From Fibrobacter sp. (GTDB lineage: Bacteria > Fibrobacterota > Fibrobacteria > Fibrobacterales > Fibrobacteraceae): a stretch of 64,000 nt of DNA. Where the stretch lies: NCBI GenBank assembly GCA_024398965.1, contig JAKSIF010000008.1, positions 1 to 64,000 of the forward strand. The letters are read 5' to 3'. The position numbers and the translations under genes are program-made. Below the pieces are notes generated by a model. That model was given only the letters and a program-made list of their open reading frames with translations. It was not told the DNA's origin and made no database searches. Positions 37,415-55,524 of this stretch are shown here, one piece after another. The stretch's first letter is position 1. Each line of letters opens with the position of its first letter.

Positions 37415-39613
37415 CTATTTTCCCATGTCCCTGATGAGGTCGCGGAGTCGTGCGGCCTCTTCGAAGTCCAACTTGGCGGCGGCGGCCTTCATCTGGGCCT
37501 CCAGTTCCTCGATGGAAAGCTTTGCGGACTTGGCAGAACTCTTTCGGCCAGGAGTCTTCTTGGGCTTGCCCAGGGGGGCACCCTTGAACAGGGGAACATC
37601 CCCATTTTCGTCGTTGTCGGCGAAACCGTAATCGGCGTCGAAATCCGGGTCCTCGGCGGCCTTGGGAGTCCTGTCGCCGCGCCACAGGTCCATCAGCGGA
37701 TCGTTGATGACCAGGTCCCCTTCCAGCTTGCGGCTGACGGACTTTGGCGTAATGCCATGTTCCTTGTTGAATTCCTCCTGCAGGGTGCGGCGACGGACGG
37801 TTTCATCGATGGCCTTCTGGAGGCTGTCGGTCATGTTGTCGGCGAACAGCAATACGGTGCCGTTTACGTTTCGGCTTGCGCGGCCCATGGTCTGGATCAG
37901 GCTGCGGTAGTTGCGGAGGAAGCCTTCCTTGTCGGCGTCCAAAATGGCCACCATGCTGACTTCCGGCAAATCCAGGCCTTCGCGCAAGAGGTTGATGCCC
38001 ACCAGCACGTCGAACTCTCCGGTGCGCAGTCCTTTAATGAGGTCGTGACGTTCCAAGGTCTTAATGTCACTGTGTAAATACTTGGCCTTGATACCTGCTT
38101 CCACAAAATAGTCCGTAAGGTCCTGGGCCATCTTCTTGGTAAGGGTGGTGACCAGCACACGGTCGCCATTCTTGATGGTCTCCTCGATGCGGTAGAGCAG
38201 TACGTCCATCTGTCCCTGGATGGGGAACATCTCGATCTTCGGGTCCAGAAGGCCGGTGGGGCGGTTAATCTGTTCTGCTACCACACCGCCGGTCTTTTCA
38301 AGTTCGTATTCGCCGGGAGTGGCGCTGACGAACAGTACCTGCTTGGGATACATGAACTCGAATTCCTTGAAGTTCATGGGGCGGTTGTCCAGGGCGCAGG
38401 GCAAGCGGAAACCGTAGTTTACAAGTGTAGTCTTTCGGCTCTTGTCCCCTTCGGCCATGCCGCCTACCTGGGGAATGCTCACGTGGGATTCGTCCACCAT
38501 CAGGAGCCAGTCGTCACCGAAGTAGTCGATGAGGGTAAAGGGTCGGGTACCGGGGCCGCGGTTTTCGATAAGGGCGGAATAGTTTTCGATGCCGGAACAC
38601 ATGCCGGTCTCGCGGATCATTTCCATGTCGTAGCGGGTGCGGCTGGAGAGTCGGGCGGATTCCAGGACCTTGCCTTCCTTGTCCAGTTCGGCAAGGCGGT
38701 CCGTCAATTGCAACTGCATACGCTGCAGGATTCCGGCTCGGCCTTCTTCTTTCGTGACGAAGTGCTTGGCGGGAGCGATGGTCATTTCTTCCAGCTCCTG
38801 GATGACCTCGCCGGTAATGATGTTGAAGCGCACCAGACGATCCACCTCGTCGCCGAACAGCTCGATGCGCATGCCGTCTTCGTCGTAGCTGGGGTGGATT
38901 TCGATGACGTCGCCGTGGCAGCGGAAGGTGCCGCGTTCCAGGCTGAAGTCGTTACGGGTGTACTGGATGCGGACCAGTTCATGAAGCAAGTCGTCGCGGT
39001 CCTTGATGTCGCCTTTTTTCACGCGGACCATCAGGTCGAAGTATTCCGCGGGGCTTCCCAAACCGTAAATGCAGCTGACGGAAGCGATGATGATGACATC
39101 GCGACGGGTCAGCAGGTTAGCCGTTGCACGCAGACGCAGCTTGTCGATTTCGTCGTTGATGCTGGCGTCTTTTTCGATAAAGGTATCGGTGTGGGGAATG
39201 TAGGCTTCGGGCTGGAAATAGTCGTAATAGCTGACAAAATATTCCACCGCATTCTTGGGGAAGAATGCCTTGAATTCCTGGTAGAGCTGGGCGGCCAAGG
39301 TCTTGTTGTGGGTGAGGATGAGGGTTGGCTTACCCACGTTCTTGATGACGTTTGCCATGGTGAACGTCTTGCCGGAACCGGTTACGCCAAGGAGCGTCTG
39401 GAATTGATCGCCCTGCTTGAAACCCTCGGTAATCTGCTCGATGGCCTTGGGCTGGTCGCCGGCGGCGCCATACTGGCTTACCAGTTCGAAGTTGGCGCGG
39501 GTTGGCGCCTGGAACTGACGCAATCTTCCCGGAAGGCTCTGCTCGGGGGAGAGAACCTTTGCTATCGGTTTTGCATACGGATCCGGGGTAATTGTCTTGC
39601 GCGCTCTAGCCAT
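37415..39613 (-). CDS. uvrB: Excinuclease ABC subunit B
   Basis: 732-aa DNA-damage recognition helicase of nucleotide excision repair. Walker A GVTGSGKT (residues 76-83), [19 protein letters not shown], the helicase C-terminal motifs [12 protein letters not shown], and a C-terminal UVR motif ([20 protein letters not shown]). It is longer than E. coli UvrB by about 37 N-terminal residues and a Gly/Lys/Asp-rich linker before the UVR motif (about 640-690). The ribosome-binding site is poor. The first 332 nt are repeated at 53354-53685, so the promoter region seen here may not be the ancestral one. Confidence 0.96.
39282..39613. repeat. Left copy of a 332-bp direct repeat (uvrB 5' end)
   Basis: Identical in length and 97% identical (9 mismatches, no gaps) to 53354-53685, same orientation. 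The similarity stops exactly at the uvrB ATG on one side and inside codon 111 on the other. The two copies enclose a 13.7-kb segment. Confidence 0.92.
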
Positions 39614-39686
39614 GAGGAAGTGATTAGTAGTTAGTGGTTTGTAAGCAGAGGGGGTGATGGAATGATTTGAATTGGTATGTTGGATT

Positions 39687-40376
39687 CTAGTCTTTTACGC
39701 AACGGATGGACAGATAATCATTTTTGTAATATCTAATTATTGCTGCGGAGTTTTTTTGTGTTTCGAAAAATACACCGTATGTGGAATTATCATCTTCTAA
39801 AGGTTTACCTGTCCACACTAAGGCAATGTAGCCATCAATTGCTTTGTCTGGTGTATATTTGAAATTGTTTACACCTATGCCTGTTGTAGGGATTGGGTAC
39901 AGGGCGAAGCCGCAATCGTCCGTTCCGTTTGAGGTTTGCCCTGGGTTCAATGGAGTCCACCCCTCGGTTGCCTTTAAACGGGCTGCTGCGGTATCTATCC
40001 CACCAACGTTATCAAAAAGCAGTCTCCATTCAGTTTCTGTCGGCAGATGCCAGCCGTTGGGACATGCGTTTTGTGCGTCCACCGAGCTATATTCTCGACC
40101 TTTTTCTGAACAGGATTCCTTGGCGCAGGGAGAACCATTGTCAAAATTAAGGTTCTCGGCCATCCACACTTGGTTGCCGATGGTGGTGTACTTGTACACC
40201 TGTCCATCACGTTCATCAGTGAATGAACCTCGGTTCGGTTCGCCATATGCGTTCATCCCGTCGGCGGGGCAGACGACGCTTGCGTCAAAAGAGTCTTTAG
40301 GCTCCGAAGGGCTATCTTCGGAACATGCGCAAAGCAAGGAAACAAAAGCGGTAAAAAGAATGAACTTTGATTTCAT
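39687..40376 (-). CDS. FISUCC (TIGR02145) lipoprotein, left copy
   Basis: 229 aa. Signal with Cys18 in LLCACSEDS, then a TIGR02145-type domain: [52 protein letters not shown], ending IRCVKD. The family is expanded in Fibrobacter; its motifs (LPTE-EW, RCVKD) recall the FGE-sulfatase / C-type-lectin-like fold. Function unknown, probably surface binding. No ribosome-binding site; TATATT lies 7 nt before the ATG. Its 5' half is nearly the same as the gene at 51989 but the 3' half differs. Confidence 0.85.
40152..40343. repeat. Left arm of inverted FISUCC gene repeat
   Basis: Matches 52046-52213 in inverted orientation, with blocks of 23 to 27 identical bases separated by a 9-codon length difference. 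Contains three short palindromes (CCGAAG/CTTCGG, GACGC/GCGTC, GGTGTAC/GTACACC). Confidence 0.8.
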
Positions 40377-40383
40377 GTGAACA

Positions 40384-40389
40384 AATATA
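40384..40389 (-). promoter_or_regulatory. -10 box (TATATT), possible leaderless start of the left FISUCC gene
   Basis: TATATT, seven bases, ATG at 40376; no Shine-Dalgarno site. Confidence 0.45.
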
Positions 40390-40528
40390 GGTGATGCAGA
40401 ATAGAATTTTTGCAGATAAAGTGAAAAAACGGGTGCTTTCGGAATCATTCGTGAAAATGTAAGAAAAAACACAAAAACGTAAGATTTGCAATTTCTAAAT
40501 TTTTATGGGTGTTTTTCTCGGAGAAAAA

Positions 40529-42760
40529 ATGAACAAAGTAATATCCCTCCTGTTGTTCTTTGCGGCGTTTGCCTTAGGTGCCGTAGTTAATCCATCTCAA
40601 TCCACTTTGGCTATTTTGTTGGATGCTTCAGGCCTGTGTGATTCCTCTTCTTCTACATCTTGGAAGAATATGCAAATGACCAGCTTCCTGAAGGATTTCG
40701 CCTTCTATGGGGAGTCTGGTTCTATTTATTGCCATTCTTATGATGGTTCCTTGGACCCTTCCGAAGCGGTAGATGTGCTTTTTAAGGGGGCAAATTCTGT
40801 TTTTAGTAAGGCCCTGAATCAGTGGTCCCAGAATAGGAAAAATTCAACTTCTAAGAAAGTTCCCAATAAATTTGTAATCATTGCCGAAGGTGTTGCGGGT
40901 CTTGCTGCACGCGAGTATATCCAAAGTAAGGAATATCAAGGAGAAATCGATAACGTATTGTTCTTCAATACTCCACATGAGGGGTCCGGGTTTGCGGACC
41001 AAACTTTATTGAATGGCTCTAGTGTCTTGAATAAGGCAAAGTCTGTATCCGATTATAGTGATGTTATTCCGCTTGCGTTGGCTGTGTATCTGGTTGGCGG
41101 CAGTGATGCTCTAGAAAATTTGATGATGTCGCTTTTAAAGGAAGCTGTTCTTGGAATGGCCCAGAATGCAGGTGATATAAAGAAAAACTTTTTAAGTTAT
41201 TTTGAAGATGCCGACAAAACCTACAAGTCCATGCTTTATTTGGCTCAGGATTTGGACCTGAATGATGATGCCTATAATGAGGTGAAACAGAAGGCTCAGG
41301 AAAAGAGACTTGAGTTGAAAAATTATGTTGGCAGTACTCAGTTATTGAATTCCTATTCTAAAATGAATGTTTTTGATCACCCCGCATATAACAATATTTA
41401 TTCCTATGGCCTTCCTACAATTGGAAATGGACGACGTACTTTAGCGGATTTTGCTGATCAGGCAAAGAATCACGTAAGCAAAGAGAAAATACAGAAAGTC
41501 TTGACGGAAGCTGTGGCTGCTAAGGTGGACAATATTAAGGACGAGGCTAAAGCAGAAATTGAAAATATAATCTCCGAAGCCATGAAAAGTGACCTTGCTG
41601 CAAGTGCATTGCAGACTGCGAGTGATATAGCAAACAAGTATAAAGTACCTGCTGGTGAAATAGCGGAATGTATTCAGGATGTTTCAACCTTGAGTAAGTT
41701 GAAGTTCAATAAAGAAAACTTGTCAAGTTCTGTAATGAAGGTTATTAGCATTGCTAATAAATATTTGCCCGAAAAATACAAGTCAGAGCTGTTCTCTACC
41801 TTTATTGATGAATATTCGGAAAAAATAGCGGAACTTAATGACAAACTTAAGTCTGTAAAAGAAGATATGAAGAAGGGCATGGAGGTTGTTTCAAATAATC
41901 TTTCCAATTATGCAATAAATTTTTTCGAAGAAGGGACATTTGATGTCTCTGCCATAAGTGCTATTGGAAAAAATGTTCAGGCTTTTAAGGAATCTAGTGT
42001 ATCGCGTATAGGATATTCCCTGAGTGATTTTGTTCAATCCAATAAAAGCAAATTCACGGATTTAAATAGTTATATGGACCGTGTTTCGGAAGTCGGTAAG
42101 TTAGAAGAACTTAGGGGAAATATTGACGATGGCTTGAAAATTGCTTGTGTAATTGCAGAAACGGCTAATCCTGGAGCGGGAAAGGCTTGCCGTGCCGGAC
42201 AGTTTATGGCGAATGTAGCTCTTATAGCGAAGGTTTCCTCGGATATTGAGAATGCTATGAAGATGATTGGTTCGTTAAAAAATGCCAAGTATATTGCCGT
42301 AGAACAGTCTATAAACCGAAAAAATAAATATAGCTCCTGGCGTGATCATAATGGAACGTCAAAAGATATAGAATCTTCTGATATGGAAAGTATGCTGTTT
42401 GGAACGCCCATTGTTTCTTTGCAAACGGTTCGCAAAAGCAGTGGCTCTGCTGATTCTATTGTCCCTCTTGCTTTGTATAAAACTTTTGGTGATGTTAGTA
42501 ATTACTTAGACATTTCGAAGGATGGATCTTCTTATGATTACCTGTTCCCGGCATCGGAATTTTCTGAAATAAGCCGAAATTCTTTGACTAATAGTAATGC
42601 CGTGATGATAAAGGATGCGGAAAGGTATGCTGCGTTAGATGGGTTTATTGTTAGAGATTTTATTCAGGAATATCGTTTTATAGTAGACGATTTTCAGCCG
42701 GATGAATTGCGCTTGATTAAGTTTGACTTTAATGCGAGAATGCAGATTGCTTATGAATGA
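40529..42760 (+). CDS. Lipase-like N-terminal part of a giant surface protein (ends at in-frame TGA)
   Basis: 743 aa to the TGA. Signal peptide (residues 1-18, ALG-AVV). A PGAP1/lipase-like alpha/beta-hydrolase region (about 25-300): KFVIIAEGVAGLAAREYI and FFNTPHEGSGF align with IILGISQGGILGR and DSPHQGA of the secreted hydrolase at 30403, but the nucleophile Ser is Gly121. A long helical region follows (about 300-620) and a beta-rich end. GGAG lies 5 nt before ATG 40529, so an in-frame ATG at 40505 is not needed. The frame continues after the TGA without another stop for 9.2 kb: ...MQIAYE-stop-DGNLWNIYRG reads as one sequence. Codon choice is A+T-rich compared with the flanks. Confidence 0.75.
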   Translation: MNKVISLLLFFAAFALGAVVNPSQSTLAILLDASGLCDSSSSTSWKNMQMTSFLKDFAFYGESGSIYCHSYDGSLDPSEAVDVLFKGANSVFSKALNQWSQNRKNSTSKKVPNKFVIIAEGVAGLAAREYIQSKEYQGEIDNVLFFNTPHEGSGFADQTLLNGSSVLNKAKSVSDYSDVIPLALAVYLVGGSDALENLMMSLLKEAVLGMAQNAGDIKKNFLSYFEDADKTYKSMLYLAQDLDLNDDAYNEVKQKAQEKRLELKNYVGSTQLLNSYSKMNVFDHPAYNNIYSYGLPTIGNGRRTLADFADQAKNHVSKEKIQKVLTEAVAAKVDNIKDEAKAEIENIISEAMKSDLAASALQTASDIANKYKVPAGEIAECIQDVSTLSKLKFNKENLSSSVMKVISIANKYLPEKYKSELFSTFIDEYSEKIAELNDKLKSVKEDMKKGMEVVSNNLSNYAINFFEEGTFDVSAISAIGKNVQAFKESSVSRIGYSLSDFVQSNKSKFTDLNSYMDRVSEVGKLEELRGNIDDGLKIACVIAETANPGAGKACRAGQFMANVALIAKVSSDIENAMKMIGSLKNAKYIAVEQSINRKNKYSSWRDHNGTSKDIESSDMESMLFGTPIVSLQTVRKSSGSADSIVPLALYKTFGDVSNYLDISKDGSSYDYLFPASEFSEISRNSLTNSNAVMIKDAERYAALDGFIVRDFIQEYRFIVDDFQPDELRLIKFDFNARMQIAYE

Positions 42761-42769
42761 GATGGTAAT

Positions 42770-45700
42770 TTGTGGAATATTTACCGTGGAGTCGACAATA
42801 AATGGGAAACGAAGCCTATAGGGACGTTGTCCAAATCCCCAGTAACAAAAGATGGCTTTTTTGTATTTCGCCCGAAGGAGATTTTAAATAAGGACAAGAC
42901 TACGGGGAAAGATAGTATATTGCTTAGTGCAATTCAAGAAGATGGCGCTAATAACATTAGCATTTATGTTGTGAACAAGGTTGGTTACGCCAATAATCAA
43001 CGCATTACGTTCCTTTTCCAAGCAGTTGATTATTTATTGGAGGAGGGGTGGCCAAAATCCTTTGAAAAGGTGTCTAGAATGGATACCGTTGATTTTTATG
43101 CTAATGATTTGGGATATGGAGCAGATACGCGGGAACATCGGATAACGGTCGTTGGCCCTGATTTTGTTGATTCTACAATTAATGTCCAAGTAGATCGTGT
43201 GCCTGGTTCGGGGCACCGTTACAGATATTGGGCGGATTTGACCTCGATATGGAAACAACATCCCTTGCAAAATAGTACATACACGCTTAAGTGGAATCTT
43301 GCGTATAGCGTAAAGACTTTGAAGGCGGATAATTCCATAGGAAGCCAAGAGGTGAAATACACGCCGCAAACTATTGTGTGGGGAGATACCTCTAAGCCTA
43401 TTTTGGAATTTGATCCCACTCTTTCTCCGTATGTGGTTTCTTCGAAAAAGGAAAATAGCATAGCTTATGTAGTTGCAAAAGATTCTGTTGATGAACGCGC
43501 TCTTCGTAACATTCGTGGATTTATCGTGCGAAAAAATGCAAAAGATGCGATAATGCTATTGCAAAAAGAGAATGTAAATGAACGATTCTATGAAATTGGA
43601 TGGAACGGAAAGAACGTTTCTTGGAGTGGCATTGCTGATTTATATGTGCAGGCGTATGATTTTTCGAATCCAAGCAAAGCGATGAAGAATGCTATTGCAA
43701 AAATTTCCGGTGATTCCGCCTGGCGGGAGGTTCTGACGGGTGATTCTTTTGTGGATGGAATTAATGGCACTGTAATACATAAACAAATTCTTGTGGATAA
43801 CGCTGCTCCGCAGATTTTAAATGATTCTGTTTCGGTATTGAGCTTTCACGATGCGGCTCTTCCGGCTTTCACAAAACAAAATGACGGTGCGGATTATGTT
43901 CTGAACGCCTTGGATACGCTAAGAATTTTGTTTGATGTAGATGAGATTTTATTTGGCAGGACCTCTGAAAATATTGTAGCGGAATTGACTTTTGCGGATT
44001 CTATTGACAATGGCAATGTTAAAAAGATTCGTTATTTGTTAAATGATTCAATGACGCAAAATAATAGACGCTTTGTATTTGTAGAACCTGAAGTTAATAG
44101 ATTAGGGAATGGTGTTTATAGCTTGACAGTGGCCGTTACCGATGAAGCCGGCAATAGTTCTTCTAAAAAGTTGATTTCAAAATTACGCGTAGATCGTAGC
44201 GCTCCGCAAATTCGTGGAGTTACATTAGGCGATGTCGCTTATGGAAGTGTTGCTGAATTAAAGAAAGGTACAGGCTATTTGAGTCAATCCCTGGATGATG
44301 CTAGAAATCGTTCTGACTTAAGTTGCTTTGTAAAAGTGAATACGGATAAAGCGGAAGGGCCGTGGACTGGACCATTCGCCGAAACGAATACAAAGGTTAA
44401 AGCGGACGTGAATTTCATTTTTGACATCAAGTCTGCTGTTATTGATACAAGTCATGGTTTTTGGTATGTCTATTTGGGTTGTTATGACCATGCGGGTAAT
44501 TTTGGCAAGAATATGAATTTTATGGGCGTCGGAAATCGCTATCCAGAAATAACTTTACCAGATAGTACTCCTACACCCCATAGTGGACGAATTTTGGTTA
44601 GGGGCATTGCACCAAATCCAGATGTGAATGGAAATGATAATGTAGGTGAATTCCGTTTATCTTGGCGAAATAAAAAAGACTCCATGTGGTATGAAGATGG
44701 ATTGAGTTATCTTGTTTTTGACAAAAGTCTTTCTGTTTCTGAACGAGATTTGGCTGTATGGAATACTGCAGATGCTAAACTTTCTAAAGATGACTATGTG
44801 TTGAAACTCTCTGTAAGAAGTTGCGATACATGCGCATGGATTTCGAATGAGCGAAATGTAATTGTAGACGATTATGTTGTTCCTAGTTCAATTGGTGAGC
44901 CGAAGTTGGTGGTAAATTTACCTACCCAGAAACACGTTGCGGGCAATGAGCAGAGCGTGTCTATAGAACTTATGAATGTTGCTGATACCTCAAAATGGTT
45001 TGTTTATGCAACCATAGAGGCTCCCTCGCCAAGAGATTCCTCTGTTTATATAAAAGCAGTGGAGAAGTCTTTTGATTCCATGATTTTGTCTCCGTTTAGA
45101 ACGCCTGCCGTAGCGTCAGATACGGGACTTTCTATATGGCAGGAAAGTGATGACAGTACCTGGCACGTAAGATACGCAGGAAATGCAAGTGGCATTATGA
45201 ATAGGGGCGATTCAACAAGTATGAATCCTTTTTTGGTTGTTCGATTTGTTGATGGGAAAATAGATTTTGGAACTTCGCCAAACGCAGATTCTACAGAGAC
45301 TCTTGGCTTTGTGATGGATAGTATAAAGGTTCATGTTGATAGTGTTCCCGATTTTACGGTTCCTGCTTACAATACGACCAAGAAGTGGCTTCTTGGAAAA
45401 GATAGTGTTCATCTGGTATTCAAAACGGCATCGTCCTTTACTGTTGATGTTTCTTCTGTGGATGGGGCCTTGTATAAGGATTCCCTGTCGCCAGTGGTTT
45501 ATGTTCATCCAGAAGAATACAAAGCCCATGTAGTGTGGAATGGCTTGGTGAACAAGATGTATTCTAGCGGATCTCTTGTAAAAATGCATGTGCTTGCGTA
45601 CGAAAAAGGCAATGAACAGAATATTATTAGTGAAGATGCGAAATGGTATTTGGAATATCAAGAACCCAAAATTGAAATTTCTAGCAATAACCTTGAAAAG

Positions 45701-48700
45701 TATTACATAGACTTTTTAAAGAATATGAAAGATTCTTCTAAAGTAAAAACGGCTGATTTTGGATTCCAGTTTAAGTTGACGGGTCGCTCAGCGTACGTAA
45801 CTGCTGATATTATAGATTCTGATAAAAAATCTGTCTATTCCCTATTGGATAGTGAACTTGTCTTGGCGACAAATTCAAATCAATGGAATACACTACAATG
45901 GAATGGTGTGAAAGATGATAAGCTTATGAAACCCGGCTCGTACAATGTACGCCTTGTTGTTACGGATGCGAAAGGAAAAGTGATTGATTCGCTGTACTAT
46001 CCGTTTAGTTTGAGCTTGGGAGCGAATTTGGTTGAGGCTCCAAAGGATTCTTCAAAGGGAATTGTGGCTGACTTGAAAATGGAAGAAGCTTTCTTGGATG
46101 AATTCGGTGATTATCGTTATGTGGGCAAGGCTGATTATTTGCTTCGTTCTGACCTTGTTGCTACGGTTTTACCCGAGAAGGAACGTACTTTTTATTATAC
46201 ATGGGATGTTTATGGTGGAACTCAGAGGCCTACCATGTATAAGAAAACAAGGCCCAGTCTTGGTATTCGAAGATCCCGTGACGAATTTGAGGCGACTGTC
46301 GTGACGCTTGTGATGACGGAATCCCGAGTGTATGAGATACAGGATAGTAAAGATTGGTATGAATTTGACTTAAATGGCTGTTATGAAGCGAAACATTCAA
46401 AAAGCCGCCATTATTACTATAGAATGAATGTGCAGAGAGAAACTTTCAAGAAGAATGAAACTGCTAAGGAAATTTTGTTAGACCTTGATTCTTTGAGGCA
46501 TTTAGGTGAGAGTACAGCCTATGGATATAAGTCAAATACAAAAGAAGTTTTGCATAACTTGGCTGCCATAAAAATTTTGCCTGCGAGTTCATTTTATGAA
46601 GTTTTTACCCGATTAGGAAACAGTACAACATATTTTGGAGATGCTGTTGCGGATGTCGGTAAAACATCTGCGGATGAATTTAAGTGGGAGAATGTGTATA
46701 AGAATGAAACGTACACAGGAGATGTTTTGCGTGAAACAAAGATGGCGTATTGGTTTGGCAATTGGGGTGGTCAAGCTCTGTATTACGAAGCGGTAAATAC
46801 GGATTTTGCCATCATGACGAATTCGGACAATTTGACGAATGCTTTTGGTTTATCGTCAAGGACTGAAACTGTTTGCAAAGCAGATGATATTGCTGCATCC
46901 GTTTTAGCGAATGTCGATGACTCTTTTGTTTGTGGAGCGAGAAATGCAAAGGAAGAAGTTGATAAGGACGTTGTTGCGAAGTTTAATCCTCATGCTTATA
47001 TGATGGATGTGAAATTGAAGCCTTTTACGGGTGAAGAGTCTTTTGTCATAAAAAAATTTGACAAGCACGATTGTGTTGAAATGGATGGATCAGGTTCTGA
47101 TATAAAAGTCAAATTTGTTCTTGAAATGAATCCTGAGTATTGGGATCCTAAGCCAGAAAATTGGGGCACGAACAACTTGGCGAACCGCTATGTTCGCTTT
47201 GACCCGATAAACAAAACGCTTTATGGGGGTGATGGCTATGTTACAAAACTTGCTAATCAGAGGGACTCAAATTTTTACAATTTCTATAATGGCAATCAGT
47301 GGGTCTCGGATGGTACTTTTGATAATGGCCCGACTGTATTTGAAGCCCAACGCTTGCCAATGAAATTGGAACCGGAAAATCCGCTGTTGTTCAATGATGA
47401 AATTAACGGCGCGATCAATTCTTCGAATCTGAGTTGGCGATTCTATTTGGGTAGCGGAGACGTCGCTTATAAAGCAGAGGCCAAAGGCCCCAATGATTCG
47501 CAGTTGGCAGTATTTACAAGTAATGATGAGGATGCCGTGAATGGACATGACAAGGATATCGGCAGTGTGGCGAATATCTTGAATTGTAAATTTGATGTGG
47601 CTCCCATGATGACAACGATGTCTGCTAAATCGGCGGGAATTGTCTATACGGATAATTCTTTTGCTGTGGCTTATCCCTATGATAACGGAACATGCGCTTT
47701 ACCAAGTGACAAGAATAAGGATTATCGTTTTTATGGTTGTGACAAATGGGTTTCTAGAGTCCATTATAAACAAAATGACTGGACTGAACAAGAATGGAAT
47801 GCAAAGTATCTAGAAAATGATTACTATCGTAATCCCTTGACCGATGCCAGCGTAAATAAATATTTCCTGGTAAACTCCACTTCTCCGACAAATGCTGGTG
47901 TGGCACAAAAGATTGATTCGGTAAAGGTTGATTCTGTTACTTGGAGTGCTGAACTACAAGAACCCAATTTTGACATAGATAATTTATTGAGCGGAAAATA
48001 CGTTCTTAAATCTAATAGTCGGAATTCGGACAATTGGGATACTGTTTCTTCAAAATCAGGTAATGGTATACGTTATACTATATCTAATAAGGGACAGTCC
48101 TATTTGGCTAAGTTGGATTTCTACCGATCAAAGGATTCGATTTTTGTTGCTGATACAAGTTTGAACAATAGTATTTCTTTGAAAAGTGTTGTTAATCAAA
48201 ATCAAAAGGATTCCATACTTTCTACAAATTGGGCGAAAAATATCTCTGTAGGCAATGTTGCTGTATATAAGAGAAATATGGAGGGCGATACAAACCTCAT
48301 CGAACATCCTTACTTTAAAGCGTCCTATGATTCCCTAGGTAAACAATTTAATGTGAATCGAACTTCTTTGGACGTTTATGCATCAAGAGAAGATGAAATC
48401 ATTTCATTGCTTGGCCGAGTTCCTTACGCAGTATGTGATTGGAATGTCTCGTATATTCAAGATGGTATGCGATTCAACGTGACTGGGAAAAATTCGGATA
48501 CTTTGGACACAACTGTACCTTATCCGATTAAGGTGTCAAAGAATGTTAATGAACTTCAGGGGAACACCTCGTTTTTCTTGACTTATAGTGGTCTTAACAA
48601 TATAACCTATTATCGTCAATTGGATGTCCGCATAGGAAAACTTGTAAAACCTGAAGACTCTATAACGGTATATTCTTCATATCACAATGTGTCTGTACAT

Positions 48701-51700
48701 TTTAATAAAGGTTCCTGGGAAAAAAATACAGATGTGACTGTGCGTACCATGGATCCGAGCGAGTGCTACGATTGTGAACTGTTTAGGAATATGGTACCGG
48801 TAGGCCCTGTAATAGAGGTTCTCCCTTCTCACAAATTTGCTGCAGGTAAAGAGCCTCTTGTTACGATGGATATTTCTAGAACTTCATTGGAAAAAGATAA
48901 TGTTGATCCGCGTAACTTGAAAATTTACAAGCCCGATGTTCAAAATAAGAAACTTGTTCCTTTGGAAACGTTTGGCCTTGTCTATCTTGATTCCAATCTT
49001 GTCGTTTGTAAAGATACGAGTGCGTCTGCCTGGTCTTTTGTAAGAATAACTGCAAAAACATCAACATTCTCCAAGTTTGTAGCACTTGATTCTTTGATGG
49101 CCGATAGTGTTGAAATTGCAGATTCTATTCCAGAGGAAATAGGGATATTCTCCTGCAGTCAAATGGACTCTTTGTGGGGAGATACACTATGGATGGGAAC
49201 GGCCAACGGTTGGCTAGAGTATCCTTATTTGTGCGATGGAAAGAGTAATTATCTTCTTCAGTTGAAGAATTCAAGCAATGTGGCAGCAGAGCATCATGGT
49301 GCTTCTGAACGTCCGATTATTTGGCGTGCAAAAAATACAGATTTGAATCAAATTGATTCCCTGTATCAATCGTTTATCGTGTTCTATGGGCTTGATGGTA
49401 ATACAGAGCAAAAGCTGGGTCCTGTTGTGAAATTGGATTCTACAGCTCCGGTGATTGAAAATGTTGACATCTCGGTTTCCGATAATGGCGATGGACGTAT
49501 TGTTCATGTGGCTGCAGATGTCTATGAAGCCGAAAGTAAATTGAAAGGGACTACAATGGAACTTTTCCTTGGTGGTAGTCTTGTGGAAAGCATTACCATT
49601 CCCGAAAATGGTATTTTGCAACATGACTTTAATCTAAAGAAAAAAGACCTTTATGAATGTATCGCCTGTATGGCGACCATTACGGTTATTGCAGAGGATT
49701 ACGGTCATAATACGGATAAAGTTGTAAAACAAACGGAAAAACTGTATCCATATCCGTCTTCTTTGATTTTGTGGTATCCGCTTGCAGAGGGGGCTGGAAA
49801 TATTGCGTATGAAATCATGACGAAAGATAAATCTAGGCGATTGCACATGGATCTTTCTTCCGTTAACAAGCCATGGGGTGCTAAATATGGTGTTAATCTA
49901 ACAGCGAAAGATTCCGCAAGTAGCAGATATATATTACCTGCTTTAGATACCCTTCGTCCCTTCTCTTTTGAATTTAATTTTAATTCCAATAATACTCAAA
50001 GGGAAGATTGGTCTATTCTAAGTTTTGTCGGGAAAAATGAGTGGACATTTGGCCTTGGAACGTACAATCGTTATTTCTTGAAGGTTGGCTCTGAACAATT
50101 CTACTTCAATACAAAACGTGAAGCGAATATCCCTACGCACCTTGTGGTTGTGGTGGATGGAACGAAGGCTAGCCTTTATAAGAATGGCAAATATGAGGAA
50201 ACCATAAAATTGAGTAAAGAACTGCTTTATGGAGGTTATGGAAAGCTTTCTATTGGCGCTCGTAATGGTGTGCGTAGTGCTGGCGGTAGCATTTCTAACT
50301 TGCGGTTCTATTCTTCGGCACTTACCGAAGAACAGATCCAAAGTATATTCGAAGGGGTCCTAAGTGTGGATGAGGTGAATTTTGCCGCAGTTCGCGCAGT
50401 AGATTTGGAGGATAGGGACGGCCTTGTGGTTGATCAGTCCTGTTCAGCTCCGGGCAAGGCTTATCTACGTCAAAAGTCTATTGGCAATGACGGTGTGATG
50501 ACTTGGAATGTTGACTTGAATGCCGATAATTATTCCCTCTATCTTCTTCATAGGAATTATGTTTCTGAGGACTCCAGGGTCGAGATTCTTGTTAATGGAA
50601 ATAGCGTAGGAATATTTAAGTTGACTTCTACGGGTCTGTGGAAGAGCGAGAAAATTGTAAATCTTGGACTTAGTCTAAACTCCGGTGTCAACGAGATTGG
50701 CGTTCGTCCATTGGGAAGCCTTGGTGTGGCTGCAATAGCTTTAGCAAGCAGTAGCGCCAATATTGAAGATAATCAAATCAGTTATAATGAATCTTCTTGG
50801 GTTGACCCAGATCCAAAGGTGAGGGTGCTTATGAAGTACGAAGCCATGGACGATAAAAAATGGACTCAGGTTCGCTTTGATTTGCGCAACATGACTGACG
50901 AGTCCCTTGAAAATGCAAGAATTCGCTACTATTACAAGGGAGAAGGCGAAAATGTAAGTGCAACATCGTTCTTCCCTGATGCTCCAATGAGTGTTGTTAA
51001 TGATGCCGGTTCTGTTTTCTATGCTGAATTTGCGTTGACTGAGGCGATTGCTGCCTATGGTACGGCTTACTTTGGTCAGGGACCATTAATTGGCCTGCAT
51101 CGAATCACTTCTCCAACCAATTATTTCCCATATTGGGACAAAACCGATGACCCAAGTTATCTTAAGGACGCTGAATTTGGCTATGCCAATGCAACGGGTG
51201 TAGCCCTGCTAGATGGAGACGGAAACTTGCTTAACGAGTTTGCTTGCTACGATGAAGATGGACCTGTGCAAAAGGCCAAAATCAAGGTTCGCGCAATGGC
51301 AATGGATTATGAATACGGTTCCGCAAGTGCTAGCAATCTTGCTGTGTATGTTGAAAATACTGGCAGTGCTCCTATTGATGGTTTTGAAATGCGTTACTAT
51401 TTCAGGGATTCTGCAAAAACGGAATTCGATGTGAACTGGAGTGCCTTTGCGACTAGCCAAATGGTTAATGCCGGTGGAGATTTGTACTATATTTCGTTTG
51501 TGTACGATGTTCTTTTAAATCCGGGAGATAAGTCTGATTATGGTAGCGGCGTGCAGTTCGCGGTGCATCATCCAAATAGGACAATCGATTTTAACGCGAA
51601 GGATGACCCCTCCCATTATAATTTGAATAATTACGGAATGGTTGAGGCCGATTCTGTCGTGGTGCTGGATAAATTGGGTAATTTGCTCTGGGGTAATGCT

Positions 51701-51976
51701 CCTCAGCCAAAATTTAGTGAAGGTTATGTTCCCAATGAAAAATATGCAGACCTTGTGCATAGGGAAGGTGACGTAATTTACGTGAATATTGAGGAAAACG
51801 GTTATTACATCCTTGAAATGGTGAATGCCATGGGTGCCCCGTTGAAAACGCTTTATAAGGGTTCGTGGGACATTGGTGAACATTCGGTGGCAATTGACGT
51901 TAAGTCTATTCAGCCTTCGAGTTATATTGTACTCCGAAGAGGAACAGATATATTGTCGTGGAGTCTTCTGAATTAA
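42770..51976 (+). CDS. Giant surface adhesin-like protein, continuation in the same frame
   Basis: 3068 codons from a TTG at 42770; the frame is open from the TGA at 42758. No signal peptide of its own and no clear ribosome-binding site, so as a separate gene it could not be exported in the usual way. Many FlgD/Ig-like beta domains (VDNAAPQI, VDRSAPQI, LDSTAPVI, LQWNGVKDDKL) over residues 100-2330; a LamG-like domain (about 2330-2525); a carbohydrate-binding module like CBM6/35 (about 2540-2670); two tandem CBM3-like modules (about 2680-2820 and 2830-2980, both with IRYYY/MRYYF strands); and an 80-residue tail (YILEMVNAMGAPLKTLYKG) like a T9SS/FlgD-type sorting domain. Role inferred: binding to plant fibre at the cell surface. 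Confidence 0.75.
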   Translation: MWNIYRGVDNKWETKPIGTLSKSPVTKDGFFVFRPKEILNKDKTTGKDSILLSAIQEDGANNISIYVVNKVGYANNQRITFLFQAVDYLLEEGWPKSFEKVSRMDTVDFYANDLGYGADTREHRITVVGPDFVDSTINVQVDRVPGSGHRYRYWADLTSIWKQHPLQNSTYTLKWNLAYSVKTLKADNSIGSQEVKYTPQTIVWGDTSKPILEFDPTLSPYVVSSKKENSIAYVVAKDSVDERALRNIRGFIVRKNAKDAIMLLQKENVNERFYEIGWNGKNVSWSGIADLYVQAYDFSNPSKAMKNAIAKISGDSAWREVLTGDSFVDGINGTVIHKQILVDNAAPQILNDSVSVLSFHDAALPAFTKQNDGADYVLNALDTLRILFDVDEILFGRTSENIVAELTFADSIDNGNVKKIRYLLNDSMTQNNRRFVFVEPEVNRLGNGVYSLTVAVTDEAGNSSSKKLISKLRVDRSAPQIRGVTLGDVAYGSVAELKKGTGYLSQSLDDARNRSDLSCFVKVNTDKAEGPWTGPFAETNTKVKADVNFIFDIKSAVIDTSHGFWYVYLGCYDHAGNFGKNMNFMGVGNRYPEITLPDSTPTPHSGRILVRGIAPNPDVNGNDNVGEFRLSWRNKKDSMWYEDGLSYLVFDKSLSVSERDLAVWNTADAKLSKDDYVLKLSVRSCDTCAWISNERNVIVDDYVVPSSIGEPKLVVNLPTQKHVAGNEQSVSIELMNVADTSKWFVYATIEAPSPRDSSVYIKAVEKSFDSMILSPFRTPAVASDTGLSIWQESDDSTWHVRYAGNASGIMNRGDSTSMNPFLVVRFVDGKIDFGTSPNADSTETLGFVMDSIKVHVDSVPDFTVPAYNTTKKWLLGKDSVHLVFKTASSFTVDVSSVDGALYKDSLSPVVYVHPEEYKAHVVWNGLVNKMYSSGSLVKMHVLAYEKGNEQNIISEDAKWYLEYQEPKIEISSNNLEKYYIDFLKNMKDSSKVKTADFGFQFKLTGRSAYVTADIIDSDKKSVYSLLDSELVLATNSNQWNTLQWNGVKDDKLMKPGSYNVRLVVTDAKGKVIDSLYYPFSLSLGANLVEAPKDSSKGIVADLKMEEAFLDEFGDYRYVGKADYLLRSDLVATVLPEKERTFYYTWDVYGGTQRPTMYKKTRPSLGIRRSRDEFEATVVTLVMTESRVYEIQDSKDWYEFDLNGCYEAKHSKSRHYYYRMNVQRETFKKNETAKEILLDLDSLRHLGESTAYGYKSNTKEVLHNLAAIKILPASSFYEVFTRLGNSTTYFGDAVADVGKTSADEFKWENVYKNETYTGDVLRETKMAYWFGNWGGQALYYEAVNTDFAIMTNSDNLTNAFGLSSRTETVCKADDIAASVLANVDDSFVCGARNAKEEVDKDVVAKFNPHAYMMDVKLKPFTGEESFVIKKFDKHDCVEMDGSGSDIKVKFVLEMNPEYWDPKPENWGTNNLANRYVRFDPINKTLYGGDGYVTKLANQRDSNFYNFYNGNQWVSDGTFDNGPTVFEAQRLPMKLEPENPLLFNDEINGAINSSNLSWRFYLGSGDVAYKAEAKGPNDSQLAVFTSNDEDAVNGHDKDIGSVANILNCKFDVAPMMTTMSAKSAGIVYTDNSFAVAYPYDNGTCALPSDKNKDYRFYGCDKWVSRVHYKQNDWTEQEWNAKYLENDYYRNPLTDASVNKYFLVNSTSPTNAGVAQKIDSVKVDSVTWSAELQEPNFDIDNLLSGKYVLKSNSRNSDNWDTVSSKSGNGIRYTISNKGQSYLAKLDFYRSKDSIFVADTSLNNSISLKSVVNQNQKDSILSTNWAKNISVGNVAVYKRNMEGDTNLIEHPYFKASYDSLGKQFNVNRTSLDVYASREDEIISLLGRVPYAVCDWNVSYIQDGMRFNVTGKNSDTLDTTVPYPIKVSKNVNELQGNTSFFLTYSGLNNITYYRQLDVRIGKLVKPEDSITVYSSYHNVSVHFNKGSWEKNTDVTVRTMDPSECYDCELFRNMVPVGPVIEVLPSHKFAAGKEPLVTMDISRTSLEKDNVDPRNLKIYKPDVQNKKLVPLETFGLVYLDSNLVVCKDTSASAWSFVRITAKTSTFSKFVALDSLMADSVEIADSIPEEIGIFSCSQMDSLWGDTLWMGTANGWLEYPYLCDGKSNYLLQLKNSSNVAAEHHGASERPIIWRAKNTDLNQIDSLYQSFIVFYGLDGNTEQKLGPVVKLDSTAPVIENVDISVSDNGDGRIVHVAADVYEAESKLKGTTMELFLGGSLVESITIPENGILQHDFNLKKKDLYECIACMATITVIAEDYGHNTDKVVKQTEKLYPYPSSLILWYPLAEGAGNIAYEIMTKDKSRRLHMDLSSVNKPWGAKYGVNLTAKDSASSRYILPALDTLRPFSFEFNFNSNNTQREDWSILSFVGKNEWTFGLGTYNRYFLKVGSEQFYFNTKREANIPTHLVVVVDGTKASLYKNGKYEETIKLSKELLYGGYGKLSIGARNGVRSAGGSISNLRFYSSALTEEQIQSIFEGVLSVDEVNFAAVRAVDLEDRDGLVVDQSCSAPGKAYLRQKSIGNDGVMTWNVDLNADNYSLYLLHRNYVSEDSRVEILVNGNSVGIFKLTSTGLWKSEKIVNLGLSLNSGVNEIGVRPLGSLGVAAIALASSSANIEDNQISYNESSWVDPDPKVRVLMKYEAMDDKKWTQVRFDLRNMTDESLENARIRYYYKGEGENVSATSFFPDAPMSVVNDAGSVFYAEFALTEAIAAYGTAYFGQGPLIGLHRITSPTNYFPYWDKTDDPSYLKDAEFGYANATGVALLDGDGNLLNEFACYDEDGPVQKAKIKVRAMAMDYEYGSASASNLAVYVENTGSAPIDGFEMRYYFRDSAKTEFDVNWSAFATSQMVNAGGDLYYISFVYDVLLNPGDKSDYGSGVQFAVHHPNRTIDFNAKDDPSHYNLNNYGMVEADSVVVLDKLGNLLWGNAPQPKFSEGYVPNEKYADLVHREGDVIYVNIEENGYYILEMVNAMGAPLKTLYKGSWDIGEHSVAIDVKSIQPSSYIVLRRGTDILSWSLLN

Positions 51977-51988
51977 GGAAATGTTTGT

Positions 51989-52669
51989 ATGAGGAATTAT
52001 AAAATGAGGTATCAAAAACTACTAGGTGTTAGCTTTAGCTTGATTGTTTCCTTGCTTTGCGCGTGTTCCGAAGATAGCCCTTCGGAGCCAAAGGATACTT
52101 TTGACGCAAGCGTCGTCTGCCCGGAAAATCAAAGGGGGACGTTCACCGACGAACGCGACGGACAGGTGTACAAGTACACCACAATAGGCAACCAAGTGTG
52201 GATGGCCGAGAACTTGAAATTCGACGCACCGTTCAGCCTGTGCTATGACAAAATCGAAGGCTTCTGCGATACGTTCGGCAGGTTCTATTCGCTACATATT
52301 GATGGTGAGGATTTGGGACTCTTTGACCGGGCTTTGCTAGACACCATTTGCCCTGCCGGGTGGCATGTGCCCTCTGTGGACGAATGGAATGTATTAGCTG
52401 AAAATATGGGGGGGGCGGAGTTTGCAGGTCCTAGGTTGATGAGCTCCTCTGATTTTGGGGAACGGTATACTCCAGGAACTGATGATTGCGGATTTGATTC
52501 TAAACCAGCAGGAGAATGGCTGTTAGACGGGACCATATCTGGCAACTATGCTGTATATTGGACATCAACCGCTAAAGACTTTGATTTGTCGTATGTGGTG
52601 GCTATGGGAGTTGGTTTTACAATAGGACAAAACTATCCCAAGCATTCATTACGTTGCATAAAGGATTAA
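51989..52669 (+). CDS. FISUCC (TIGR02145) lipoprotein, right copy
   Basis: 226 aa. Lipoprotein signal with Cys26 ([10 protein letters not shown]), then [52 protein letters not shown], and HSLRCIKD. Follows the giant gene by 12 nt, so it is in the same operon. ATG 51989 has AAGGA 9 nt upstream; ATG 52004 with GAGGA is equally possible and gives a more usual signal peptide. The 5' half is a near copy, in inverted orientation, of 40152-40343. Confidence 0.85.
   Translation: MRNYKMRYQKLLGVSFSLIVSLLCACSEDSPSEPKDTFDASVVCPENQRGTFTDERDGQVYKYTTIGNQVWMAENLKFDAPFSLCYDKIEGFCDTFGRFYSLHIDGEDLGLFDRALLDTICPAGWHVPSVDEWNVLAENMGGAEFAGPRLMSSSDFGERYTPGTDDCGFDSKPAGEWLLDGTISGNYAVYWTSTAKDFDLSYVVAMGVGFTIGQNYPKHSLRCIKD
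52046..52213. repeat. Right arm of inverted FISUCC gene repeat
   Basis: Inverted match to 40152-40343. The arms lie about 11.7 kb apart and bracket the giant adhesin gene, so recombination between them would flip it. Confidence 0.8.
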
Positions 52670-52672
52670 GCT

Positions 52673-53311
52673 ATGAAAAAAACAACATTTCTTCTTTTTT
52701 TGTTTTTGGTTTCTCAATCATTTGCCCTCTCGTTAGAGCAGGTAAAGGCGGCGCTCAAGGAAAAAACAATTCCTCGAGATTCCATTGAAATGAACCTTCG
52801 TACGTCTGTTCGCGCTGCGGGTGTGTATCAGCAAACTGATGTTTACTTTGTGAGCAAAGGAGAAAACAAAAGCTACACTGAAATAAAAAGTAATTTTTTA
52901 AACCAGCGAAGCATTGTGAATGGAAATAAAATGAAGGTTGTGGATTTAAAGACGAATAAGTCGCAAATCCTAGATTACAATGCCGAAGCATTGAAATCGT
53001 CATCCTATGGAAATTTCAATCCGTTAGATTCGGGTGAATGGAAAGAGCCGAAGTTTTTTTCAGATGATACATATATTATACAGGGATCCGCTGGAACGTT
53101 GTATTACAATAGTAAATTGAAGCGTATCGAAAAATTGGAGTCTGTGAAGGACAATGCCGATGTTCTTACCACGTTCACTTATGATGCGAACAACAATATG
53201 AAAAAAATGGTTGTGTCGGTGTTGGTCAAAGGTGTGGAAAGTATTGTGACAACCGAGATCCTTCGTATGCAGAAATCAGATAAGGTTCCAGACAGAATGT
53301 TTGAATTCTGA
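52673..53311 (+). CDS. Periplasmic LolA-like protein
   Basis: 212 aa. Signal peptide (residues 1-18, SFA-LSL). The mature part has the strand order of the LolA/LppX-like fold: SYTEIKSNFLNQRSIVNGNKMKVVDLKTNKS, then TYIIQGSAG and a C-terminal sheet. Such proteins carry lipoproteins or lipids across the periplasm. It starts 3 nt after the FISUCC lipoprotein gene, so a role with that lipoprotein or the giant protein is plausible but unproved. Last gene before the uvrB fragment. Confidence 0.65.
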   Translation: MKKTTFLLFLFLVSQSFALSLEQVKAALKEKTIPRDSIEMNLRTSVRAAGVYQQTDVYFVSKGENKSYTEIKSNFLNQRSIVNGNKMKVVDLKTNKSQILDYNAEALKSSSYGNFNPLDSGEWKEPKFFSDDTYIIQGSAGTLYYNSKLKRIEKLESVKDNADVLTTFTYDANNNMKKMVVSVLVKGVESIVTTEILRMQKSDKVPDRMFEF

Positions 53312-53328
53312 TGCAAATTCCAACCCAT

Positions 53329-53685
53329 TCAAGGATTGTGGTGCAAAAATTCATAGAGCTGGGCGGCCAAGGTCTTGTTGTGGGTGAGGATGAGGGTAGG
53401 CTTACCCACGTTCTTGATGACGTTTGCCATGGTGAACGTCTTGCCGGAACCGGTTACGCCAAGGAGCGTCTGGAATTGATCGCCCTGCTTGAAACCCTCG
53501 GTAATCTGCTCGATGGCCTTGGGCTGGTCGCCGGCGGCGGCGTACTGGGAAACCAGTTCGAAGTTGGCGCGGGTGGGCGCCTGGAACTGACGCAATCTGC
53601 CCGGAAGGCTCTGCTCGGGGGAGAGAACCTTTGCTATTGGTTTTGCATACGGATCCGGGGTAATTGTCTTGCGCGCTCTAGCCAT
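53329..53685 (-). pseudogene. Truncated uvrB 5' copy
   Basis: Encodes the first 110 residues of UvrB, with the Walker A site, then a short foreign tail and a stop. Compared with the intact gene (39613 downward) it has 9 nucleotide changes in 332: CCG/CCA, GGA/GGC, CCA/CCC, GTA/GTT, AGC/TCC, TAT/TAC, CCA/CCT are silent and GGC/GCC (Gly49/Ala) is not. It is too short to act as UvrB. An A/T-rich promoter-like stretch (CTATAAA) and a small palindrome lie upstream. Confidence 0.92.
53354..53685. repeat. Right copy of the 332-bp direct repeat
   Basis: Direct repeat of 39282-39613. Beyond the repeat the two copies are unrelated on both sides. Confidence 0.92.
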
Positions 53686-53700
53686 GTATCAAAGATACAT
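53684..53700. promoter_or_regulatory. Palindrome overlapping the start codon of the uvrB fragment
   Basis: ATGTATC-AAA-GATACAT; its left arm includes two bases of the start codon. Could be an operator of the ancestral uvrB promoter. It does not match the LexA-type boxes I know for this group. Confidence 0.4.
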
Positions 53701-53708
53701 TTATAGAA

Positions 53709-54290
53709 CTAGAAGGGCTCGCGACTGTCCCAGATTTCCTTAATAGTTTCGCAAATATCTTTTTTAGATTCAACGGATCTGCCGGTTAACATGTAAATGG
53801 AACCATTTACAATGGAAGCCATTACGCAGCGTTGGTACTGGTCGTTTGTGGATTTGATGTAACCGAATTTCTGTTCGTTGTTGTAGACAGGTCCGGTGGT
53901 TTCTGCCTGGCTGATGACCTCATGGCGGGAAGTGGCGTAGTCAAAGTCCCACTTGAGATAATACTTCACGAACTCCTCATCGCTAGCATTTTCTTCGATG
54001 GTGAAGGTGGAATCCTTGTAGAGAAAATTCTTTTTCCCGCCTCTTAGAGAGACTTCCTCGTTGCCTTTTACGAAGGTAAATGCCATGAGCTTTTCTTCAA
54101 GTGAAAAAGCATCTTGTCTGAACTTCCAATCAGTTATTATGAAGGTATATGCTTCAGGGACAGGAATGTTAAGTTTCCATCCGGAGCTTATTCCAAAAAC
54201 AGAAAATTTCGATACGGACGGTGCAACTTTGCTTGGCCCAGAACAGGCGCAAAAAATGAGTCCGAGGAAGAGCGTGAAAAATTTTTTCAT
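53709..54290 (-). CDS. Lipoprotein of unknown function
   Basis: 193 aa with a short signal and Cys16 (IFCACSGP). Beta-rich mature part (WKLNIPVPEAYTFIITDWKF) with two further Cys near residues 155 and 178. AAGGAG lies before the ATG and TATATT about 30 nt further up. No recognised domain. It is the first gene outside the island on this side, and would have been the gene upstream of uvrB before the insertion if the right copy is the old promoter end. Confidence 0.65.
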   Translation of the reverse strand: MKKFFTLFLGLIFCACSGPSKVAPSVSKFSVFGISSGWKLNIPVPEAYTFIITDWKFRQDAFSLEEKLMAFTFVKGNEEVSLRGGKKNFLYKDSTFTIEENASDEEFVKYYLKWDFDYATSRHEVISQAETTGPVYNNEQKFGYIKSTNDQYQRCVMASIVNGSIYMLTGRSVESKKDICETIKEIWDSREPF

Positions 54291-54372
54291 AGATAATCTC
54301 CTTGTCCTAAATCCAGAATTGAATATAAAAAAAACGATACATCTGTAAAGGGAAGGGAGACCATGTACGAGG

Positions 54373-55524
54373 TTACTTTATACTCAGGCTTTCTTTGGCA
54401 GAAATTTTTTCCTTGCCGATAAGCTTGTACAGCTTGTTTCGGAAAAGAGGAATGGTGGCGACAACGCCTGCGACGACGACTAAAACGCTTAGGTAGGCGA
54501 TACCCGGTTTATCCAGTTCCGCCTTGAACACGATTCGCAGCACCAGCAGAATCCACCAGTGAACAGCAAGAATGATAAGGGCGTTTCGTGAAATGTTCCG
54601 CAGGATTCCCTTGAAGATTGCGATGGGCGCGACGTTAGGCAATTTGGATAAAAGCTGAAAAATTCCAATGAGGCCTGCAATTCCCAAAATGGAACTTCCC
54701 ACAAATCGGAAAATGTTTTTCCCAAGGGTGTTGTTCATGATGCTGAACCAGGGCGTGGCTTCGTCGATGATGGCGTATAGCACGAATGCTACGATGGTTC
54801 CAATTAGCAGAGTTACGTTCCCGACCCTGGAATTGATGTTGCCCAGTTTTTTGATGGGCTCCTTGCAAAGCCAGCCCAGCGCAAAAAAGGCTAGGCAAGT
54901 GCAATCGCGCTCGATGCCCAGAGGCAAGCGGATGTGGCTTTTAAAAAGCAGCCAACCGGCGATTAAACTGCTTGCGGCAATCACCGCTATAATTATTTTC
55001 TGCAGGACTGGATTCTTCGCGTTGCTCAGAATGGCGCTGGTTTTTTGCACTCCAAAGAACATCAGGCTGATGGAATACAGCGTGAATACGAACCAAAGCG
55101 GGCCCGACCCGATGCTGGATTTTCCAGCTACGAAAATTTTTGCGAAATTCCAACCGATATACTGACTGACATTCTCGATATTCGGCACCGTATTCATGAT
55201 TGTCATTTTGGGGGCTCGGGGGAACCACTCAAAATTCCATACTACAGGATCCAAGGCTAGGAATAGCAGTGAAAGCCAAATGTAGGGGAGGAGCAGAACC
55301 TTGGTCTTATGCAGAGCGTAGCTCTTGAAATCAGCGAATCGTCGGGTGCTGAAAAGTACGCCCGAGATAAAGAAGAATGTGGACATGCGCATGGCGCTGA
55401 GCGCTTCCATTCCCAGGCTCACATTCTTGAAGGATTGCTCCACATGGAAAAGGCAGACCAGCAAAAGGACGAATCCCTTGTATTCGTCTATCCACTGGAT
55501 GCGATTTTGCGAAGCCCCTCCCAT
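54373..55524 (-). CDS. Acyltransferase-3 family membrane protein
   Basis: 383 aa, about ten membrane helices. The start region RIQWIDEYKGFVLLLVCLFHVEQSF, with the conserved His, and FFISGVLFS are typical of Acyl_transf_3 enzymes, which O-acylate cell-surface sugars. ATG 55524 with CAGGA 6 nt upstream is preferred over the GTG at 55539. It begins 24 nt after the metallo-hydrolase gene and is probably co-transcribed. Substrate not predictable. Confidence 0.85.
   Translation of the reverse strand: MGGASQNRIQWIDEYKGFVLLLVCLFHVEQSFKNVSLGMEALSAMRMSTFFFISGVLFSTRRFADFKSYALHKTKVLLLPYIWLSLLFLALDPVVWNFEWFPRAPKMTIMNTVPNIENVSQYIGWNFAKIFVAGKSSIGSGPLWFVFTLYSISLMFFGVQKTSAILSNAKNPVLQKIIIAVIAASSLIAGWLLFKSHIRLPLGIERDCTCLAFFALGWLCKEPIKKLGNINSRVGNVTLLIGTIVAFVLYAIIDEATPWFSIMNNTLGKNIFRFVGSSILGIAGLIGIFQLLSKLPNVAPIAIFKGILRNISRNALIILAVHWWILLVLRIVFKAELDKPGIAYLSVLVVVAGVVATIPLFRNKLYKLIGKEKISAKESLSIK

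Follow-up and report, generated by a model that had tools for sequence, protein, structure and literature searches.

The window analysed here, a stretch of 64,000 nucleotides from Fibrobacter sp., contains on its forward strand two long reading frames of identical phase: one of 743 codons, running from an ATG at 40529 to a TGA at 42758-42760, and one of 3068 codons, running from a TTG at 42770 to a stop at 51976. As the earlier note had described, only this TGA separates the two, on which the ORF listing and the sequence agree, and the junction translates as MQIAYE*DGNLWNIYRG (asterisk, stop), just as was read there. A good ribosome-binding site, GGAGAAAAAATG, lies just 5' of the ATG at 40529, and a further in-frame ATG is present upstream at 40505. 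The 5' part (40529..42757) comprises a signal-peptide-like start and a PGAP1-related pseudo-hydrolase domain, as assessed from the ORF, alignment and family searches; the 3' part (42761..51976, same strand) is open, has no start of its own, and consists of β-domains, one Laminin_G_3 module and a β-rich C-terminal tail. Read as a whole, the giant gene is 3815 codons long, and the TGA is its sole internal stop. In-frame start candidates between 42770 and 43400 are TTG and GTG codons and a single ATG at 43079, none of them with a convincing ribosome-binding site, and no signal peptide was found in the 3' part, in keeping with the initial description of it. Re-initiation at the stop was considered and rejected, as the overlapping ATGs are out of frame and the only near in-frame start, TTG 42770, has no ribosome-binding site. 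The genetic code is standard and TGA a normal stop, as had been supposed: of the 41 ORFs in the window judged to be likely genes, 5 terminate at TGA, and prfB (RF2) is encoded in the source genome (3.59 Mb in 151 contigs, 99.92% complete; nearly complete, not closed).

When 61 genomes of the genus were searched with the junction region, 19 contained homologues, and a subsequent search of 80 gave 27 genomes with homologues; both counts include the source genome of the window. Most of these homologues lie in frames of 3,500-4,100 codons, and the sole stop inside any match was the TGA of the window. At 28 homologous places in Fibrobacter genomes the reading frame is open across the TGA position; in the alignment of these 28 homologues the corresponding column holds arginine in most of the nearest branch, cysteine, histidine or arginine elsewhere, and a stop in none. 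Given that homologues across the genus stay open through this position, the two frames represent one gene split by a single stop, as originally proposed, and given that they are open over their whole length, the long frame is real rather than a product of chance. The nearest homologue, in genome G066 (contig C37), is 99.5% identical in DNA to window positions 42577-46315 and reads GAA CGA GAT (Arg) where the window has GAA TGA GAT. The orthologue from Fibrobacter intestinalis ATCC 43854 (NZ_FUWU01000039.1, L097), which is about 58% identical to the window protein over 2972 aligned residues, with the parts in the same order, differs from it in having no stop at the site: it reads GAA CGG CGA, with CGG (Arg), and, from a signal-peptide-like start, stays open for at least 2956 codons, as far as the sequence examined extends. 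Since G066 has CGA and F. intestinalis CGG, the TGA is derived, most simply by one transition in a CGA codon; the codon comparison that the earlier note had called for thus bears out its option of a recent CGA-to-TGA change, every relative compared having a sense codon. The junction was not matched in an exact scan of viral contigs or in a megablast search of phage records, and we found no literature on pseudogenes of F. intestinalis.

A structure model of the intact junction region of F. intestinalis (353 residues, overall pLDDT 61.8) places the site at residue 82, at the end of a strand (76-83) and just before the next (86-93), in a block with a mean pLDDT of about 91. This agrees with the suggestion that one β-hairpin spans the stop. 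A truncated product would accordingly be predicted by the model to end inside a β-domain, without the Laminin_G_3 module and the C-terminal tail. With the junction model as query, Foldseek matched Ig-like or adhesin-like structures only weakly (TM about 0.2).

The N-terminal domain had been described as lipase-like, which holds for the fold family and probably fails for the activity. In related Fibrobacter proteins that align with this part, which match PGAP1 (PF07819, E 2e-12), the motif is GHSMGG or SHSMGG. The window branch, in contrast, has AEGVAG, AEGAVG, ADGAAG, TEGVSG or SEGVAG at the motif position, with the serine motif lost in F. intestinalis too, and scores above cut-off with no hydrolase family, PF07819 included. 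In the window protein itself the GxSxG nucleophile is absent, AEGVAG standing in its place in the region of residues 120-126 (approximately 40889..40906, forward strand, by alignment with the active-looking GHSMGG proteins). With the catalytic serine motif gone throughout, the sequences suggest that this branch is probably without lipase activity. A structure model of the 743-residue part was too poor for use (pLDDT 42).

At the other end of the protein, the β-rich tail is similar by eye to a type IX secretion system (T9SS) sorting domain, and the protein shares a signal-peptide-like N-terminus with Fibrobacter T9SS cargo. Unlike the TIGR04183-type C-terminal domain of such cargo (PMC6851124), the tail is recognised by no Pfam or NCBIfam model, even at E 5; it is possibly a divergent sorting domain. 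Since no model recognises the tail, T9SS export is deduced from the proposal of this route for the genus (PMC6851124).

In light of the above, we propose that, very probably, a single nonsense substitution of very recent date has inactivated a giant surface-protein gene of 3815 codons. In its original state, this gene would have encoded, in one piece, a Sec-targeted giant surface protein, with the intact product probably exported by the type IX system. A C-to-T change in an arginine CGA codon would then have created the TGA at 42758, at which translation starting at 40529 should stop, the product being no more than a pseudo-hydrolase fragment, broken off within a β-domain and without the entire C-terminal part. 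This fragment should remain periplasmic and would probably be degraded, a fate that we infer, as we do the export route; from the 3' 9.2 kb, useful amounts of product would no longer be made. Loss of function is suggested by the missing C-terminal 80% and, in the model, by the cut β-hairpin. Because an ordinary codon occupies the stop position in every relative, the gene is most likely freshly broken and not a new way to make two proteins. It resembles ordinary bacterial nonsense-mutation pseudogenes in that its frame is intact except for one derived stop and its closest relatives have a sense codon, and departs from such pseudogenes in nothing notable beyond its length; the case is one of ordinary recent pseudogenisation. 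The TGA is younger than the split between the window and G066. A comparison of the two over 1240 codons around the site shows 7 synonymous and 11 non-synonymous changes (dS 0.008), too few for dN/dS to inform on selection. The 3' frame, open over 3068 codons, might be held against a recent pseudogene, but this objection is weak: even at the greatest possible age at most about 1.5 further stops are expected in the 9.2-kb 3' part, and the chance of an undamaged 3' frame without any selection is at least 22%.

Several other explanations were weighed against a recent nonsense mutation. A one-base sequencing or assembly error in an intact gene would account for the TGA being the only lesion in 3815 codons and for the sense codon in every relative compared; however, assembled genomes seldom contain consensus errors of this type. 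Two further arguments, both weak, are that frequent errors are not evident in the other likely genes of the window and that a lone C-to-T change is typical of ordinary mutation. On balance we regard such an error as unlikely. Regulated or selected readthrough, by which a short periplasmic form would be accompanied by a rare 3815-residue form, could draw on UGA being the leakiest stop and on the open 3' frame, although the latter is no argument for it, because so few further stops are expected. It could also draw on Belinky et al. 2021 (PMC7918605), who argue that bacteria can tolerate in-frame stops under purifying selection, a proposal for which the changes between the window and G066 are too few to serve as a test. 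Against readthrough, the stop is shared by no relative in the genus searches or the 28-homologue alignment, the RNA 3' of it (42755-42860) does not fold more stably than shuffled sequence (z +0.94), no Rfam element was found in 38000-55000, and RF2 is present. Neither SelB over cut-off nor tRNA-Sec over the gathering score was detected in the nearly complete, unclosed genome. The readthrough option of the earlier note is accordingly very improbable, and a leaky TGA allele under selection in the window strain, providing both a periplasmic pseudo-hydrolase fragment and rare full-length surface protein, is slightly less probable still. Selenocysteine was considered in view of the cysteine in some distant homologues, which together with an in-frame UGA recalls selenoproteins and programmed UGA recoding; it was rejected, as the two nearest relatives have arginine, the stop is not conserved and the Sec machinery was not found.

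Gene fission, with both parts now working as two genes, is the reading to which we give hardly any credence. A 3145-codon 3' frame persists in G066 despite the loss of most of the 5' part, and related genes occur in other genomes as separate short copies of about 800 codons. These copies, however, end about 100 residues past the TGA position and belong to the GHSMGG branch, for which reason they were also rejected as a natural short form; moreover, the 3' part lacks a signal peptide and a good start, and the stop falls within a β-hairpin. The locus should be annotated as one interrupted gene of 3815 codons, and recoding should not be claimed.

The orthologue in G066 is itself damaged at its 5' end, judging from the sequence, with a contig break involved and the exact arrangement not proven. 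Contig C37 starts with 95 bp present at 13 further places in that genome (96-100% identity), which, where fully readable, form the end of a transposase gene that was assigned by eye to an ISL3-like family. Homology to the window begins directly after this repeat, at 42577, and of the upstream part only 151 bp (99% identity) were recovered, next to a FISUMP gene at the end of a different contig. This damaged sister copy fits a dispensable gene. Low-complexity tandem repeats (about 1190-1976 of L082, G066:C10 136500-138873) adjoin the 151-bp remnant. Further members of the family, with long intact frames, are present in G066; no additional matches to the query parts were found in the window's own genome. 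Within the shared 3' part, a module at approximately 46300..47000 (forward strand; residues about 1925-2180) is only 37-49% identical in protein between the window and G066, with flanks at 96-100% just upstream and about 90-99% downstream, and the two versions resemble each other about as much as each resembles that of F. intestinalis. By sequence, it looks like a swapped module.

Five loci in other Fibrobacter genomes (L049-L053) encode full-length GHSMGG proteins of about 4000 codons with truncated N-terminal copies ahead of them. The copies have recurring ends, at about 800 codons with NTVTISTVNKIGLSNTQRFYSIA and at about 250 codons with GALNMQLGLLLF, and each adjoins a diverged lipoprotein of about 300 residues that has no Pfam or NCBIfam match where tested. 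By analogy, these arrangements resemble effector-immunity or cassette arrays. Inside two arrays from different genomes (L049 10472-12728, reverse strand; L052 2571-4900, forward strand) lie two adjacent genes of about 360-400 residues each, one with an HNH-like end (DADHVTAWSKGGATDRANCEMLCKSHNRAKGNR) and the other methyltransferase-like by eye, perhaps a restriction-modification pair. This family of giant secreted proteins, with its GHSMGG and serine-less branches, may merit a study of its own, as may the truncated-copy arrays with partner lipoproteins and the module swapped between near-identical copies.

The giant gene resides in an apparently inserted block of 13.7 kb, along with two FISUMP lipoprotein genes, one on either side of it, and a gene for a small secreted protein. 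The block is flanked by a duplication of the first 333 bp of uvrB (39282-39614 and, at its far edge, 53354..53686 on the reverse strand; 97.3% identical), and the same uvrB fragment is also found downstream in G066. The block looks acquired, given that the giant gene has a G+C content of 40% as against 48% for the window.
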